DNA of 64,000 nt from Methanospirillum hungatei JF-1 (GTDB lineage Archaea > Halobacteriota > Methanomicrobia > Methanomicrobiales > Methanospirillaceae), in contig NC_007796.1 of assembly GCF_000013445.1 (NCBI RefSeq), positions 1,400,936 to 1,464,935 on the forward strand. The letters run 5' to 3'. Positions 17,728-64,000 of this stretch are shown piece by piece (positions within the stretch are counted from its first letter, which is position 1; every line of letters begins with the position of its first letter). The notes beneath the pieces are model-generated. The model made no database searches. It saw nothing but the letters and a program-made list of their open reading frames with translations, and was not told the origin of the DNA. The position numbers were made by a program, and so were the translations under genes.

Positions 17728-17820
17728 GAATATCCGGGGCCCTAGATATACTCGGATGAAAGGAAAAAAGATATCACGTCCACCCAAATGATTGTAAAGA
17801 GAACATTACCAGAGGCTATC

Positions 17821-18816
17821 ATGTTAGAGAAATATTATGACAAGGATGCCGATATGTCTGCAATCTCCTCTAAAACGATCGCAGTCATCGGATATGGATC
17901 ACAAGGAAGAGGACAGGCATTGAACCTCAAGGACAGCGGATTGAAGGTAATCATCGGACTCCGGCCGGGTAAGAGCTGGGATCTGGCCAAAAGTGAAGGC
18001 TTTGAAGTGATGGACGTTGCTAATGCCGCAAAGAAAGCCGATATAATCCAGATCCTCATTCCGGATGAACAACAGGGCGCAGTATACAAGACTCAGATTG
18101 CACAGGGACTTACCAAGGGTAAGACTCTTATGTTCTCTCACGGATTTAACATCCATTTTGGTCAGATTGTCCCCCCGGCAGATGTGGACGTTATCATGGT
18201 AGCACCAAAAGGACCCGGACATATGGTTCGCCGGACCTATACCGAAGGAAAGGGAGTTCCTGCACTTATCGCAATTCATCAGGATGTCTCAGGAAATGGT
18301 AAAAAAACCGCCCTTGCTTATGCAAAAGGTATCGGAGCAACCCGTGCGGTGGTCTTTGAGACCAGCTTCCGTGAGGAGACCGAGACAGATCTCTTTGGAG
18401 AACAGGCTGTCCTGTGTGGTGGGATGACATCGCTTATCAAGGCAGGATTTGAGACTTTGGTGGAAGCAGGATATGCTCCTGAAATGGCATATCTTGAAGT
18501 GCTGCACGAGACCAAGCTTATTGTTGATCTCATCTATGAAGGCGGGTTTACCAAGATGCGGAACTCCATATCAAACACCGCACAGTTTGGAGACCTGACC
18601 CGCGGACCCAGGGTTATCGGACAGGAATCATACCTTGCCATGCAGGAGATCCTTGAGGAGATCCAGACCGGCGCTTTTGCAAAAGAATGGATGCTTGAGA
18701 ATATGGTAAACCGCCCGGTATTTAACGCTCTTACCCGTGCTGATGAAGAGCATCTGATTGAAGAGGTCGGAAAAGAGATCAGGGCGACCATGCCCCAGTT
18801 TAAAGACCTGAAGTAA
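17821..18816 (+). CDS. ilvC: Ketol-acid reductoisomerase, class I
   Basis: 331 residues from the ATG at 17821, chosen because AGAGG lies 5 bases upstream and because family members begin [11 protein letters not shown] Rossmann NADPH-binding motif [10 protein letters not shown] (approx. 24-33) is followed by the knotted C-terminal domain with metal ligands in [10 protein letters not shown] and [12 protein letters not shown]. It converts acetolactate or acetohydroxybutyrate to the dihydroxy acids, the step after IlvBN. A frame from 17788 adds 11 residues without support. Expression is probably tied to the GGTGCA site upstream. Confidence 0.95.
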
Positions 18817-18843: not shown

Positions 18844-20070
18844 TTATCTTTTTTCCGGGAGACAGAGATGGTAAAACCGCTCGATATCCGGGAGTATATC
18901 TGATGCCCGTTTCCGAATCGATCTGACACTGTCATCCCGCTGGTTCATCCCACAGTGTGCAAGATTATTTCGAAGATCAGAAATTCTGGTCCATATCAGT
19001 ACCATCTCTTTCCAGTCATCATACCGGATCAAATCATCCGAATACCGGGTTTTCTCATAGGGCCGGTTTTGCATGGCAAGAGATCCACCAGTCAGGGTCC
19101 GTGAGACTTCATGACGGATATCCGCATCTCTCCAGTCAGCATCAAGATTCATCCGGATCATGAGCAACGTTATCAGAACTTCCCTGCCAAGCGTGACGGC
19201 CTGAAGAAACAATCCCTTATCGAGCTGAAACCCGATCAGTCGGATCTGTTTTCTGACATACTCGCCCATGTTTCGCGCCATTTCCGGCTCTGCGGCCAGG
19301 TCTGAAAGATCCCGTGTCGCTGCAAGGACAGGGATAAGGGAGGGAGCAAAACGAAGTAGTTCTTCATTTATTCCATCAATGTCATGAATGGCACCGGATG
19401 CTGCATACAACGCATCAACCGGACGGGCCAGTCTGACCGCATCACTAAACTGCCACAAAAGACTTGCCCAGCTTGTAAGTCTGACGGGAGGCTCAGGATG
19501 TTCGCCTGACCGGTGAATATTCCCCTGAAGATCTTTTACGAGTGAATACATCGGCTCTGCATCAACATAGTTCGTAACTGCCTTTACTCCGGCAATCCAG
19601 TCCAGAATGCCCATCATCGGTTTCAAATCGACAAATCGGCAAAATCCATCATCTCCTGTGACTGGTGCATATATCACTCCTGCTATGGTGACATGGCAGA
19701 CAGACTGGAGATATGAGGCTGCAAGGAATGTCATGAATGGAAGGGAATGGCACCCGGCGGTGATGTCAAAGAGAACCACTTCTTTATCTTTTACAGCACC
19801 ACAGATCGTGCTGAATATCTCCCAGAGCTGGGGCTCATCGGTCCCGAATGGTATCCAGAGCTTCTGAATCGGGATATTACGCCCCTCTAAATCAGATGCT
19901 ATCCCTGCCGCAGAGGGATCAGAGAGACAGATGATGATTTCATCAGGCCCATACAGGTGAAATATCGCTTCCTGAACCAGTTCTGTTTCAATGCAGACAG
20001 TATCCCTGCAATATCGTTTTTTTATGAACCGCCCCGGACCCGCGAAGGAGATACATCGCATCTGATTCAT
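18844..20070 (-). CDS. CARF-HEPN protein, Csx1/TM1812-like, orphan
   Basis: 408 residues. The N-terminus RCISFAGPGRF..Y, the pattern ETELVQEAIFHLYGPDEIIICLS, and the motif FDITAGCHSLPF (approx. 101-112) match the CARF domain of the TM1812 CRISPR-associated family, which usually has DxTHG; here Ala replaces the His. The C-terminal domain is helical and contains RNNLAH (367-372), the RxxxxH signature of HEPN ribonucleases. By family, the protein would sense cyclic oligoadenylate from a type III Cas10 and cleave RNA. No cas gene or CRISPR array lies in the window, so it is stand-alone here. It is divergent from the GT4 gene with overlapping core promoters. Confidence 0.8.
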   Translation of the reverse strand: MNQMRCISFAGPGRFIKKRYCRDTVCIETELVQEAIFHLYGPDEIIICLSDPSAAGIASDLEGRNIPIQKLWIPFGTDEPQLWEIFSTICGAVKDKEVVLFDITAGCHSLPFMTFLAASYLQSVCHVTIAGVIYAPVTGDDGFCRFVDLKPMMGILDWIAGVKAVTNYVDAEPMYSLVKDLQGNIHRSGEHPEPPVRLTSWASLLWQFSDAVRLARPVDALYAASGAIHDIDGINEELLRFAPSLIPVLAATRDLSDLAAEPEMARNMGEYVRKQIRLIGFQLDKGLFLQAVTLGREVLITLLMIRMNLDADWRDADIRHEVSRTLTGGSLAMQNRPYEKTRYSDDLIRYDDWKEMVLIWTRISDLRNNLAHCGMNQRDDSVRSIRKRASDILPDIERFYHLCLPEKR

Positions 20071-20120
20071 TCATTTGTATACAGGCCTATATGTACTTGA
20101 AGACACTACACAGCCGGTCC

Positions 20121-21266
20121 ATGAAAATTGCATTTGTCTATGATGTCCTGTACCCGGAGACTATCGGCGGGGTTGAAAAACGTATTTTCGAGATTGGAAC
20201 AAGACTTGCAGAGCGAGGACATGAAGTTCATCTTTTTCCCATGTTCGATGGATCTGATGTGAGCATAATAAATCGGGATGGGCTCATCATCCATCCGGTA
20301 TGTCGGCCGATGGGATTGTACACCGGCGGGCGGCGATCGATCATTCAGGCACTCAGGTATTCCTTTCACCTGTTTCCTGTCCTTTTAAAAATGAAAGTAG
20401 ACATCATCGATTGTCAGAATTTTCCCTATTTTCCCGTGATAGTATCCCGCTTGATCGGGTTTTTAAAAAAGGAAAAGTGTATCATTACCTGGCATGAGGC
20501 ATGGGGGGCATACTGGTACCAGTACCTTGGACTATCCGGAATTGGAGGCCGGGTGATTGAAAAGATTGCACTTCTCCTTTCCAGTTCATCCATTGCAGTA
20601 TCACATCATACCGCAGACCGGATGAGAGATGAAGGGTATTATGGAATTCCGGAGATCATCCCGAACGGTATACCCCTGCAGGAAATCCGGGCTATAAACC
20701 CAGCGGATAAGACTACCGACATTATCTTCATTGGCAGGTTTATCCCGGAAAAGCATCCAGAACTGGTGGTAGAAGCGGTCCGGGTTCTTATCAGGGACTA
20801 CCATGATCTCACCTGTACCATGATCGGAGATGGTCCGATGATGACCAGAATAGTGGAGATGATACATGATTATGGCTTATCTGAAAACATTCACCTGCCC
20901 GGGTTTGTGAGTGATTACCAGGAAGTGATCAGACTGATGAAAGCCGCCCGTGTGTTTGTGCTGCCAAGTGAACGGGAGGGTTTTGGGATCGTATGTGTTG
21001 AAGCGATGGCATGCGGACTTCCCATTGTCACGACACAATATCCGTTGAATGCCGCACTCGATCATGTTCTCCCGGGGTGCGGGTATTGTGCACGAGCTTG
21101 TGCAGATGACATTGCAACGGGTATACGAATGTTCCTCACACAATCTCCGGATGTACCCCTGTTAAATGAATATGCAAAAAATCATGACTGGGACCGGATA
21201 ACCAGTTCAGTTGAAGAGACATATTATCGGGTGGCTGATGAAAACCTACGAAGCCGGAAGATATGA
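20121..21266 (+). CDS. Family 4 glycosyltransferase
   Basis: 381 residues from the ATG at 20121 (MKIAFVYDVLYPETIGGVEKR). The N-terminal GT-B domain has the GGVEKR loop; the C-terminal domain has IFIGRFIPEKHP and REGFGIVCVEAMACGLPIV, the E-x7-E nucleotide-sugar motif (approx. 302-319). It should transfer a sugar from an activated donor to a lipid or glycan. Donor and acceptor cannot be told. The upstream ATG at 20091 falls near the expected TATA and start region, so 20121 is preferred. The downstream DUF1805 gene follows by 28 bp. Confidence 0.88.
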   Translation: MKIAFVYDVLYPETIGGVEKRIFEIGTRLAERGHEVHLFPMFDGSDVSIINRDGLIIHPVCRPMGLYTGGRRSIIQALRYSFHLFPVLLKMKVDIIDCQNFPYFPVIVSRLIGFLKKEKCIITWHEAWGAYWYQYLGLSGIGGRVIEKIALLLSSSSIAVSHHTADRMRDEGYYGIPEIIPNGIPLQEIRAINPADKTTDIIFIGRFIPEKHPELVVEAVRVLIRDYHDLTCTMIGDGPMMTRIVEMIHDYGLSENIHLPGFVSDYQEVIRLMKAARVFVLPSEREGFGIVCVEAMACGLPIVTTQYPLNAALDHVLPGCGYCARACADDIATGIRMFLTQSPDVPLLNEYAKNHDWDRITSSVEETYYRVADENLRSRKI

Positions 21267-24490: not shown

Positions 24491-26188
24491 TTATACTCCG
24501 GAATCCGGAATTATCCGTTTGAGAACATTCCGGTACGCGGCAATGACATCGCCCTTGTCAAACCGGTACACATCCTTATCAAATGACTCTCCGGTTTTTT
24601 TGTCCCAAAGCCGCATGGAATCCATGCTGATCTCATCACCAAGGTAGATAGTGCCGTCTGCCTTTCCAAACTCAAGCTTAAAGTCGACAAGTCTGATACC
24701 ACACTCATCAAAGAACCGGGTAAGGACCTTGTTTACATGTAAGGCCATCTCCTTAACCTTTCGGAGTTCATCAGCAGTCAGAATGTGCAGAACCTCAATA
24801 AGATCATCATTGATCATTGGATCGCCGCGCTCATCATCTTTATAATCAATAGTGACCACCGGGCGATCCAGCACCATTCCTTCCTTAACCGGATATTTCT
24901 TGGTCATGGAACCGGCAGCAACATTCCGGACAATGACCTCAAGCGGGATCATCTCCAGTCGACGGACGATCATAGTATCAGGTGCAGACATCCGGATATG
25001 ATGAGTTGGAATTCCTTCGGCCTCAAGCATCTTCATGAAGAATTCCGACGCCGTTGCATTAAGTCTTCCCTTGTCAGTAAACTGGTCATGCTTGACCCCG
25101 TTAAAGGCGGTCATATCATTTCGAAAGACAACAATCAGTTCATCAGGATTCTCACTGGCATAAACTGATTTTGCTTTCCCCTCATACAGGGGTTTTGCCG
25201 GTATCACGGATGTACCTCTCATATGTATTGTGTTCTCAAGGCTGATGATACAATCCCTGAGCCGTGGGTGATACCACCCTCTCCGTATATATTCAGGATA
25301 AATACAGAGCCGTTCTTTAAGCGTGTACCCTTTCGTTAAGGCCGCAAGTTCATCAAAAGCCGGCCAGGGATGCTCAGGATTTACATAGTCAATCGTCACC
25401 GGGGAGATGCCACCAAGGTCTGTTACCCCACAAGGGAGGATTTGTGCAGCGTCGGCAAGATTTGGAGGGATTTGAATGGCAATATCAGAAGGAAGGATCT
25501 CTTTCGCCATCCGGACCGTCTCCTGCATATCACGAAGGGTTGCTCCAGGAAATGCACTCATATCAGTACCTGGCTTTGGGCAGAAGTTCTGAATGATGAT
25601 CTCCTGGATATGGCCATATTTTCGGTGAAGACCGGCGATTACCTCTAATGATTCCCGCCGGTCTGACCGGGTTTCACCAATTCCAAGTAAAATGCCGGTA
25701 GTGAACGGTATTTTAAGTCTGCCGGCATCCTCAATCATGGCGATACGCCGTGCAGGTTCTTTCCCCGGGCAGTTCCGGTGCGCTGGGATGTCGGCGGTGG
25801 TCTCAAGCATAAGTCCCATACTGGCATTGACATCAGCAAGGTAGCTCATCTCGTCAGCAGTCATGATCCCGGCATTGGTATGCGGAAGAAGACCGAGACG
25901 GAGCGCCTCTTCTGCCATTGCATGACAGTATTCCAGGATCGAACCGAAACCATACTGCTCAAGGAAAGGCATAAAACCTGCCACCTCTTCAGGATGCTCA
26001 CCAAAGGTAAAGAGGGCCTCTGTGCATCCGGCCTCTGCCCCGCGCCTCAGTACCCGTATGACCTCGTCAGGTGAAAGAACACAACCTTCTCCAGGCGGGC
26101 GACGGAATATACAGTACCCGCAGATATTTCTGCAGACAAAGGTGAGTGGCACAAAAACATTCCGCGAATATGTAATTACCGGTGACAT
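24491..26188 (-). CDS. cofG-purC: Fused FO synthase subunit 1 (CofG) and SAICAR synthase (PurC)
   Basis: 565 residues in one frame. Residues 1 to about 325 are CofG, a radical-SAM enzyme with CRNICGYC (C19, C23, C26), which with CofH makes the deazaflavin FO of coenzyme F420. Residues about 328-565 are a complete PurC: YEGKAKSVYASENPDE, NDMTAFNGVKHDQ, and GDEISMDSMRLWDK near the end. PurC joins CAIR with aspartate in purine synthesis. Both halves are full length. At the junction, GAGAGGT precedes an in-frame GTG (25207, codon 328), so separate PurC may also be made. CofC is divergent next door. Confidence 0.9.
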   Translation of the reverse strand: MSPVITYSRNVFVPLTFVCRNICGYCIFRRPPGEGCVLSPDEVIRVLRRGAEAGCTEALFTFGEHPEEVAGFMPFLEQYGFGSILEYCHAMAEEALRLGLLPHTNAGIMTADEMSYLADVNASMGLMLETTADIPAHRNCPGKEPARRIAMIEDAGRLKIPFTTGILLGIGETRSDRRESLEVIAGLHRKYGHIQEIIIQNFCPKPGTDMSAFPGATLRDMQETVRMAKEILPSDIAIQIPPNLADAAQILPCGVTDLGGISPVTIDYVNPEHPWPAFDELAALTKGYTLKERLCIYPEYIRRGWYHPRLRDCIISLENTIHMRGTSVIPAKPLYEGKAKSVYASENPDELIVVFRNDMTAFNGVKHDQFTDKGRLNATASEFFMKMLEAEGIPTHHIRMSAPDTMIVRRLEMIPLEVIVRNVAAGSMTKKYPVKEGMVLDRPVVTIDYKDDERGDPMINDDLIEVLHILTADELRKVKEMALHVNKVLTRFFDECGIRLVDFKLEFGKADGTIYLGDEISMDSMRLWDKKTGESFDKDVYRFDKGDVIAAYRNVLKRIIPDSGV

Positions 26189-62907: not shown

Positions 62908-64000
62908 TTAAGGAGAGGAGGGAAGGGGAATCCCTTCAATCCCAAAGAAGGTCAACCTACCCATATTATCTGAAGAAGTACATAACCGGCCATCATCCAA
63001 CTTTAACTCGAAAGTTCCAGGTGGGGCTACTTCTCGGATATAATCTTCCATGACGACACAATTTTCGCATCCTTCTGCTTTTTCATCCTCATCAGGTTTC
63101 AAAGTACCCCTGTACCAGGGTTTTCCATTCCAATACAATGTATATGGAATGCTGCCAGACTCATCAGGTTTCATTGCCACGGTACTTATTTTAAATACCT
63201 CTGAATAATCCATTTGAGAGGTTTTTGCATGAACTTCCTGAATCGTGCAGCAATCTTTACATGGCTCTTTTTCTCCTGCCAGGACTGCTATCTTATAGAC
63301 AGGTTCAGTTCTTTTAGGTTTAACTTCCCCACCTGTATCTGGAACCTCAACTACCTGGTCTTCATATCCATCTTCATGTTCAAAGGTTAGGAGATATTTC
63401 CCTGGATCTACTCCAGTTATCAGTAAGGGAGTCAATCCTTGGGGTTCTCCATTAATGTATACCTCAATATTTTCAGGCTGTTCCAAGAGGTTGATCGAAC
63501 CATTCACAATTTCTATTGATTCAATTTGGGATGGTTCTTCAGGAATTTTGCTTAATAATCCTTCATCCGGATTTGGAGTAATTATTGGCTGAATTTCTGG
63601 AGTGACCTCTTCGGTAGGTTCAGGAGTCAACGTAGGCTCTGGAGTGACCTCTTCGGTAGGTTCAGGAGTCATCGTAGGCTCTGGAGTGACCTCTTCGGTA
63701 GGTTCAGGAGTCAACGTAGGCTCTGGAGTGACCTCTTCGGTAGGTTCAGGAGTCAACGTAGGCTCTGGAGTGACCTCTTCGGTAGGTTCAGGAGTCAACG
63801 TAGGCTCTGGAGTGACCTCTTCGGTAGGTTCAGGAGTCATCGTAGGCTCTGGAGTGACCTCTTCGGTAGGTTCAGGAGTCATCGTAGGCTCTGGAGTGAC
63901 CTCTTCGGTAGGTTCAGGAGTCATCGTAGGCTCTGGAGTGACCTCTTCGGTAGGTTCAGGAGTCATCGTAGGCTCTGGAGTGACCTCTTCGGTAGGTTCA
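62908..64000 (-). CDS. TPEP-repeat and PEGA-domain surface protein, N-terminus off window
   Basis: The frame is open from base 64000 to the stop at 62908, so the N-terminus is missing. The N-terminal part is a Pro/Thr/Glu repeat (TPEPTEEVTPEPTM/L), about 9.5 copies of 14 residues, likely an extended stalk or glycosylated linker. A PEGA domain follows (ENIEVYINGEPQGLTPLLIT, then PGKYLLTFEHEDGYED). The C-terminal about 130 residues contain cysteine motifs CKDCC and CENC and a beta-rich fold of unknown type. Cell-surface location is inferred from the repeats and the PEGA domain. Confidence 0.8.
   Translation of the reverse strand, partial: EPTEEVTPEPTMTPEPTEEVTPEPTMTPEPTEEVTPEPTMTPEPTEEVTPEPTMTPEPTEEVTPEPTLTPEPTEEVTPEPTLTPEPTEEVTPEPTLTPEPTEEVTPEPTMTPEPTEEVTPEPTLTPEPTEEVTPEIQPIITPNPDEGLLSKIPEEPSQIESIEIVNGSINLLEQPENIEVYINGEPQGLTPLLITGVDPGKYLLTFEHEDGYEDQVVEVPDTGGEVKPKRTEPVYKIAVLAGEKEPCKDCCTIQEVHAKTSQMDYSEVFKISTVAMKPDESGSIPYTLYWNGKPWYRGTLKPDEDEKAEGCENCVVMEDYIREVAPPGTFELKLDDGRLCTSSDNMGRLTFFGIEGIPLPSSP
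63602..64000 (-). repeat. Coding minisatellite, 42-bp period
   Basis: The 42-bp unit beginning gtgacctcttcggtaggttc repeats without gaps from 63602 to the window edge, about 9.5 copies. The only variation seen is one base (gtcaac or gtcatc), giving Leu or Met in the peptide. It codes for the 14-residue TPEP stalk. Such homogeneity implies slippage or recent expansion. Confidence 0.9.

Follow-up and report, generated by a model that had tools for sequence, protein, structure and literature searches.

CARF domains are usually read as sensors of the signal made by Cas10, and the proteins that carry them are annotated as CRISPR-associated by default. The stretch of DNA considered here, termed the window, encompasses 64,000 nucleotides of Methanospirillum hungatei JF-1 (positions 1400936-1464935 of the single 3,544,738-base contig of this genome, G000) and harbors a CARF-HEPN protein in which the ligand motif is altered and the ribonuclease site is intact. 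The question raised by the locus is which signal, if any, such a protein answers. An earlier note on this DNA had suggested that it either serves a distant type III system or responds to another nucleotide signal.

Domains and fold of the protein

The open reading frame at 18844-20070 lies, with all of its parts, on the reverse strand and encodes a stand-alone Csx1-like CARF-HTH-HEPN protein of 408 amino acids plus a stop codon; PADLOC, an AlphaFold model and structure matches bear out exactly the extent and domain content first read from the sequence. The CARF sensor domain comprises residues 1-153 (19612-20070), as placed by PADLOC and by CARF-only structure matches (VIA-align) that stop at residues 152-153. 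A helical linker (HTH), at residues 154-261 approximately (19288-19611), joins it to the ribonuclease domain in the model and in an alignment to the CARF-HTH part of Csx1-Crn2 (8y75). The HEPN ribonuclease domain itself, recognized by PADLOC, the model and the structure match, takes up residues from about 262 to 408 (18847-19287). Its R-x4-H catalytic motif reads RNNLAH at residues 367-372 (18955-18972), and R367, N368 and H372 are invariant in the alignment among all relatives examined.

Residues 4-401 are matched by the PADLOC CARF2--CARF_HEPN model at 9e-81, and the PADLOC Csx1 models match at 2e-68. The NCBIfam models fall below their cut-offs, with TIGR02221 (cas_TM1812, CRISPR-associated) scoring 68.2 bits against 76.25 and the DxTHG domain model 8.2 bits against 21, and neither Pfam nor a sequence search against PDB chains returned a match. 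The AlphaFold model, built with 27 relatives, has a mean pLDDT of 90.7 and matches the Marinitoga Csx1-Crn2 structure 8y7g along its full length (Z 22.0, 4.1 Å over 380 residues) as well as SisCsx1 6qzt (Z 20.0, 3.7 Å over 357 residues). This likeness to Csx1 is far beyond chance. With SisCsx1, the Synechocystis enzyme SyCsx1 (about 27% identity over 99% of the query) and Marinitoga Csx1-Crn2, the protein shares the CARF-HTH-HEPN order, the full-length fold and the RNxxAHCGM context of the active site; it is a relative of Csx1 and probably resembles it mechanically. Csx1 enzymes are effectors of type III CRISPR, dimers in which bound cA4 activates the cleavage of single-stranded RNA.

The window protein nevertheless departs from Csx1 type III effectors in three traits: its ligand motif, where its gene lies, and the reliance on Cas10. 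The ligand His and the YG-motif Gly of Csx1 are replaced, along with the Arg in one of two subclades described below, and the gene lies outside a CRISPR locus, among metabolic genes, where it is kept also in genomes without Cas10.

The ligand pocket across Methanospirillum

The altered motif, DITAGCH, occupies residues 102-108 (19747-19767) and differs from the Csx1 consensus DxTHGxR by H105A and R108H; the replacement of DxTHG by DITAG is thus as originally described. It extends from residue 102 as DITAGCHSLPF. When aligned to SyCsx1, for which D114, H117, G118, R120 and H388 serve as reference residues with published numbers, A105 corresponds to H117, H108 to R120 and H372 to H388. In SyCsx1 either H117D or R120A leaves the RNase activity with cA4 barely measurable (PMC9676260), and in SisCsx1 the H155 of the same motif contacts the bases of cA4, with N158 contacting the phosphates via water (PMC6754442). 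A second conserved CARF change, from Gly to Ala in the YG motif at residue 135 (19666-19668), is found in 10 of 10 Methanospirillum orthologues.

Relatives of the protein are present in 31 of 232 genomes of the order; a class-level search covered the identical 232 genomes and gained none. The Methanospirillum orthologues fall into two subclades, A and B. Subclade A contains six full-length members, the window protein and five others at 65-97% identity to it, all of which have the motif DIT[AS]GCHSLPF, so that the ligand His has become Ala in five and Ser in one and the Arg has become His in all six. The four members of subclade B, at 46-47% identity to the window protein, read DVTDGHR or DITDGRD: the His is Asp in every one and the Arg is retained in three. 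Subclade B therefore carries naturally the same change, H117D, that nearly abolished the activation of SyCsx1 by cA4 (PMC9676260). The earlier note had pointed to the THG position among close homologues, and that position is altered in all 10 orthologues (Ala or Ser in six, Asp in four). The pocket change is fixed in Methanospirillum and is not a quirk of a single genome. The HEPN sequence R-N-x-L-A-H-C-G-M is kept throughout both subclades. Among Csx1 proteins linked to type III systems, that is, from Cas10-bearing genomes and outside the clade of the window protein, 11 of 11 retain both His and Arg, against 0 of 18 in the stand-alone clade, although the proteins counted are not phylogenetically independent. 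Residual binding of cA4 by the Methanospirillum orthologues is possible, since the Arg persists in three of the four subclade B members and subclade A has preserved some CARF features, Tyr20 and Gly11.

Judged from substitution rates, the gene is under purifying selection. Between the genes of G000 and G199, dN is 0.016 and dS 0.19 (dN/dS 0.083). In the trio G198, G207 and G200, which are without detected Cas10, dN/dS is 0.064-0.074 for the whole gene and 0.037-0.062 for the CARF part, although dS is above 1 in this trio; the ratio is equally low in the CARF and HEPN parts. The motif block of subclade A has a pairwise identity of 0.94, compared with a protein mean of 0.68, which places it level with the HEPN motif and at rank 10 of 396 windows along the protein. 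Positions common to 11 or more of 12 type III-linked proteins (SyCsx1 and the 11 Csx1 counted above) were taken as conserved. Of these, 16 of 33 in the CARF domain have been lost in subclade A or B, whereas in the rest of the protein 3 of 28 have been lost (Fisher p = 0.002; p = 0.12 for A alone and 0.003 for B alone). Both subclades have lost, among other positions, the ligand His as well as a Thr (position 50) and a Gly (position 135); no residue of the HEPN R-N-x-x-A-H-C-G-M sequence is lost.

A fixed address, with and without type III CRISPR

The neighbors of the gene are, as had been noted, concerned with amino acids and glycosylation. A convergent ilvC (17788-18816, forward strand) and a divergent family 4 glycosyltransferase gene, GT4 (20091-21266, forward strand), are both conserved in this position. 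The latter also passes the PF20706 GT4-conflict model (43.5 bits against a cut-off of 26), with PF00534 providing the better fit. Both neighbors belong to other transcription units, such that there is no conserved operon partner, and the GC and GC3 of the gene resemble those of the adjacent ilv genes. The order ilvN-ilvB-leuA-AIM24-ilvC, CARF-HEPN, GT4-DUF1805-usp is found in every Methanospirillum genome to the limits of the contigs. The core of ilvC, CARF-HEPN and GT4 is seen in G000, G199, G201, G203, G205, G208, G198, G207 and G200, and in G204 the GT4 side alone is present, at a contig end. The contig of G206 ends inside the CARF-HEPN gene, leaving a C-terminal piece, with two extra genes after ilvC, and that of G202 stops before the gene, with at least one extra gene after ilvC; the partial copy in the former and the missing full copy in the latter are thus due to contig ends. 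The genes inserted between ilvC and the CARF-HEPN site (L074 3900-6470 in G206, L095 2446-3970 in G202) include one resembling phospholipase D/cardiolipin synthase, named by eye from its sequence, in both genomes and a PHP-type gene in G206.

The earlier note had found neither a CRISPR array nor a cas gene nearby, and this holds for the whole 64-kb window, in which the array search was empty, Rfam gave no match, and outside which all Cas1, Cas10 and RAMP matches of the genome lie. At the scale of the genome, a search for Cas10 and arrays revealed a complete type III locus at 828000-864000 (L012, L010), 560 kb from the window gene. It harbors the one Cas10 detected by profile, whose translation contains HDLGK (HD) and GGDD motifs, in an operon with several RAMP proteins, together with Cas1, Cas2, a CARF5 (Cas_NE0113) HTH protein and two CRISPR arrays of the same repeat, with 39 and 37 copies in the stretches read. 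Adjoining Cas1/2, the arrays and the Cas10 operon are two convergent Csx1 paralogues (838346-840875), which belong to the same family as the window protein, at 27-31% identity, and have the same HEPN motif, but which keep DITHGFR and DITHAYR as their ligand motifs. A complete type III locus whose CARF proteins shared the altered motif had been held to make the window gene an ordinary dispersed effector; the locus exists, but its Csx1 paralogues retain His and Arg, and so only half of that expectation is borne out. An HD-domain protein of 560 amino acids is encoded upstream of the Csx1 pair, and elsewhere in this genome a weak Cas1 match in two pieces of one 319-aa frame (1573953-1574579) is possibly a diverged Cas1.

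Across the genus, Cas10 is recognized by PF22335 in 6 of 12 genomes. It accompanies the CARF-HEPN gene in G000 and is missing from the carriers G200 (99% complete), G201 (99%, one contig), G203 (96%) and G207 (99%, one contig), where neither profile nor protein searches found Cas10 and where RAMP and CARF5 are likewise absent; absence of Cas10 and RAMP here refers to PF22335, PF03787 and one Cas10 sequence, from which a diverged polymerase could escape. Two less complete genomes, G198 and G206, are further carriers without Cas10, RAMP or CARF5. The CARF5 gene is seen in no genome without Cas10, and among the Cas10-bearing genomes tested the fragmented G204 alone is without it. In the tree, the clade of the window protein joins the proteins of g15 and G197 (96/93 support), apart from all type III-linked Csx1, and the Csx1 of Methanospirillum type III loci form clades distinct from it. 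Since CARF5 tracks Cas10 and the window clade stands apart from type III Csx1, the type III module is gained and lost as a unit, whereas the window gene persists. A role as partner or inhibitor of type III Csx1 was considered and, as a general role, rejected because no second protein of this CARF-HEPN family is present in the carriers without Cas10.

A metagenome-assembled genome named M. hungatei encodes a protein 97% identical to it, and the close relatives recovered by a scan of genome contigs numbered just two, including one from M. stamsii. No relative was found in phage records or viral contigs, and the matches in plasmids are distant: none reaches 60% identity, and most bear the annotation csx2, CRISPR-associated. 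The sister stand-alone clade of g15 and G197, from genera other than Methanospirillum (genomes G212-G218 and G197; loci L085-L090) has the motifs DLTYAPG/DLTHASG or EIQNGSR with an intact HEPN site; its genes adjoin FmdE and lie near cofC in genomes where no Cas10 or RAMP was found. In another genus, g36 (G105, G106, G107 and G109; L080, L078, L081 and L079), the Csx1 has a normal DITHGFR or DITHGYR and an intact HEPN site, again with no Cas10 or RAMP found in the genomes; the neighbors at the three longer loci include DUF1805 and a RecQ-like helicase, with a PocR/GAF response regulator in two. Single neighbors common to the window and to the loci of g15, G197, G130 and g36 (cofC, DUF4013 and DUF1805) suggest a shared ancestral address, which we do not claim because the tree groups the g36 protein with a type III-linked Csx1.

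Candidate signals and rival explanations

The reading that we favor, with a probability of around 0.6, is that the gene encodes a Csx1-derived HEPN ribonuclease that is resident in Methanospirillum, has been uncoupled from type III CRISPR and would respond to a signal from a source other than Cas10. What sequence shows in its favor is the Csx1 fold with an undamaged HEPN site, pocket changes and a chromosomal address that are both fixed, presence without Cas10, and purifying selection. Because the pocket is rewritten and the gene is kept even in species without CRISPR machinery for making the Cas10 signal, the protein probably answers another signal. The proposal of another nucleotide signal acting via the altered pocket gains indirect support from a change that is fixed and under purifying selection and that matches the substitutions which nearly abolish the cA4 response in SyCsx1 (PMC9676260). 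Mechanistically, the protein would dimerize as other Csx1 do, with the CARF pocket on one side and the composite HEPN site on the other. The CARF dimer would bind a ligand other than the cA4 made by Cas10, the HTH linker would relay this binding to the composite HEPN site, and the cleavage of RNA would then slow growth or stop an infection. A natural guess for the ligand is a symmetric cyclic nucleotide of the host such as c-di-AMP, since each carrier genome tested encodes a diadenylate cyclase (15 of 15 genomes), though such enzymes are widespread and so do not single out c-di-AMP. More tentatively, and with somewhat less than even odds, the system could represent a CARF second-messenger pathway without CRISPR, in which a housekeeping or stress nucleotide of the host, as opposed to a cyclic oligoadenylate from Cas10, opens a HEPN ribonuclease that arose from an escaped type III effector with a re-specialized pocket.

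The main rival, which we consider unlikely, holds that the CARF domain is blind to small molecules and acts as a dimer scaffold, control of the HEPN RNase falling to expression, a protein partner or an interaction of the antitoxin kind. The joint loss of several pocket residues would suit such a scaffold, as would the different courses taken by the two subclades (A/S-C-H as opposed to D-H/R-R/D), which fit a relaxed ligand contact; yet few stretches of the protein are better conserved than the motif block of subclade A, dN/dS is as low in the CARF part as in the HEPN part, and the operon offers no conserved partner gene. A more doubtful alternative is that of an ordinary dispersed type III effector answering a cyclic oligoadenylate made by Cas10, perhaps with a preference for another ring size. 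In G000 the HD and GGDD motifs of Cas10 are indeed intact and two further Csx1 are encoded, and the fold and HEPN site are of the Csx1 type. Against this as a main role stand the retention of the gene, at the same address, in genomes without Cas10, RAMP or CARF5, the nearly abolished cA4 activation when matching SyCsx1 residues are changed (PMC9676260), and the type III-locus Csx1, which have normal His and Arg, are without the altered motif and belong to different clades.

Less probable again is an undecayed leftover of a recently lost type III system, or a protein awaiting Cas10 from mobile elements. Type III loci do come and go in the genus, as the 6 in 12 distribution of Cas10 illustrates, but the gene belongs to a vertical clade of its own and does not move with type III genes, had no relative in the phage records or viral contigs searched, and is intact in genomes lacking Cas10, three of which (G198, G207 and G200) group together with a mutual dS above 1 and a dN/dS near 0.07. 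A pseudogene or a chance resemblance, in whose favor stands the altered motif and nothing beyond it, is very improbable in the face of full-length orthologues, a dN/dS of about 0.08, invariant catalytic residues and a confident full-length Csx1 fold.

A diverged orphan CARF-fold protein has a precedent in the orphan Csx15 of Pseudomonas fluorescens, which likewise lies outside a CRISPR locus and is suspected of functional divergence, but which still binds and sequesters cA4 and is proposed to be a ring nuclease and not a HEPN ribonuclease (PMC13148439). Within the literature library searched, no paper joins CARF, HEPN and Methanospirillum. The window protein provides a concrete place to look for another CARF ligand, being genus-wide, found in species unable to make the Cas10 signal, and altered at a pocket where such change breaks the cA4 response in the laboratory. 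Its orthologues also form a natural series, with Ala, Ser or Asp at one position and His, Arg or Asp at another, on which the evolution of CARF specificity could be tested.

Elsewhere in the window, a fusion of a radical SAM protein with SAICAR synthetase (PurC) is encoded at 24491-26188. It is found in subclade A genomes, and in subclade B genomes (L070, L071 and L072) radical SAM and PurC appear as two separate, adjoining matches. Near the end of the window, at 63554-63973, lie about 10 nearly perfect tandem repeats of a 42-nt unit.
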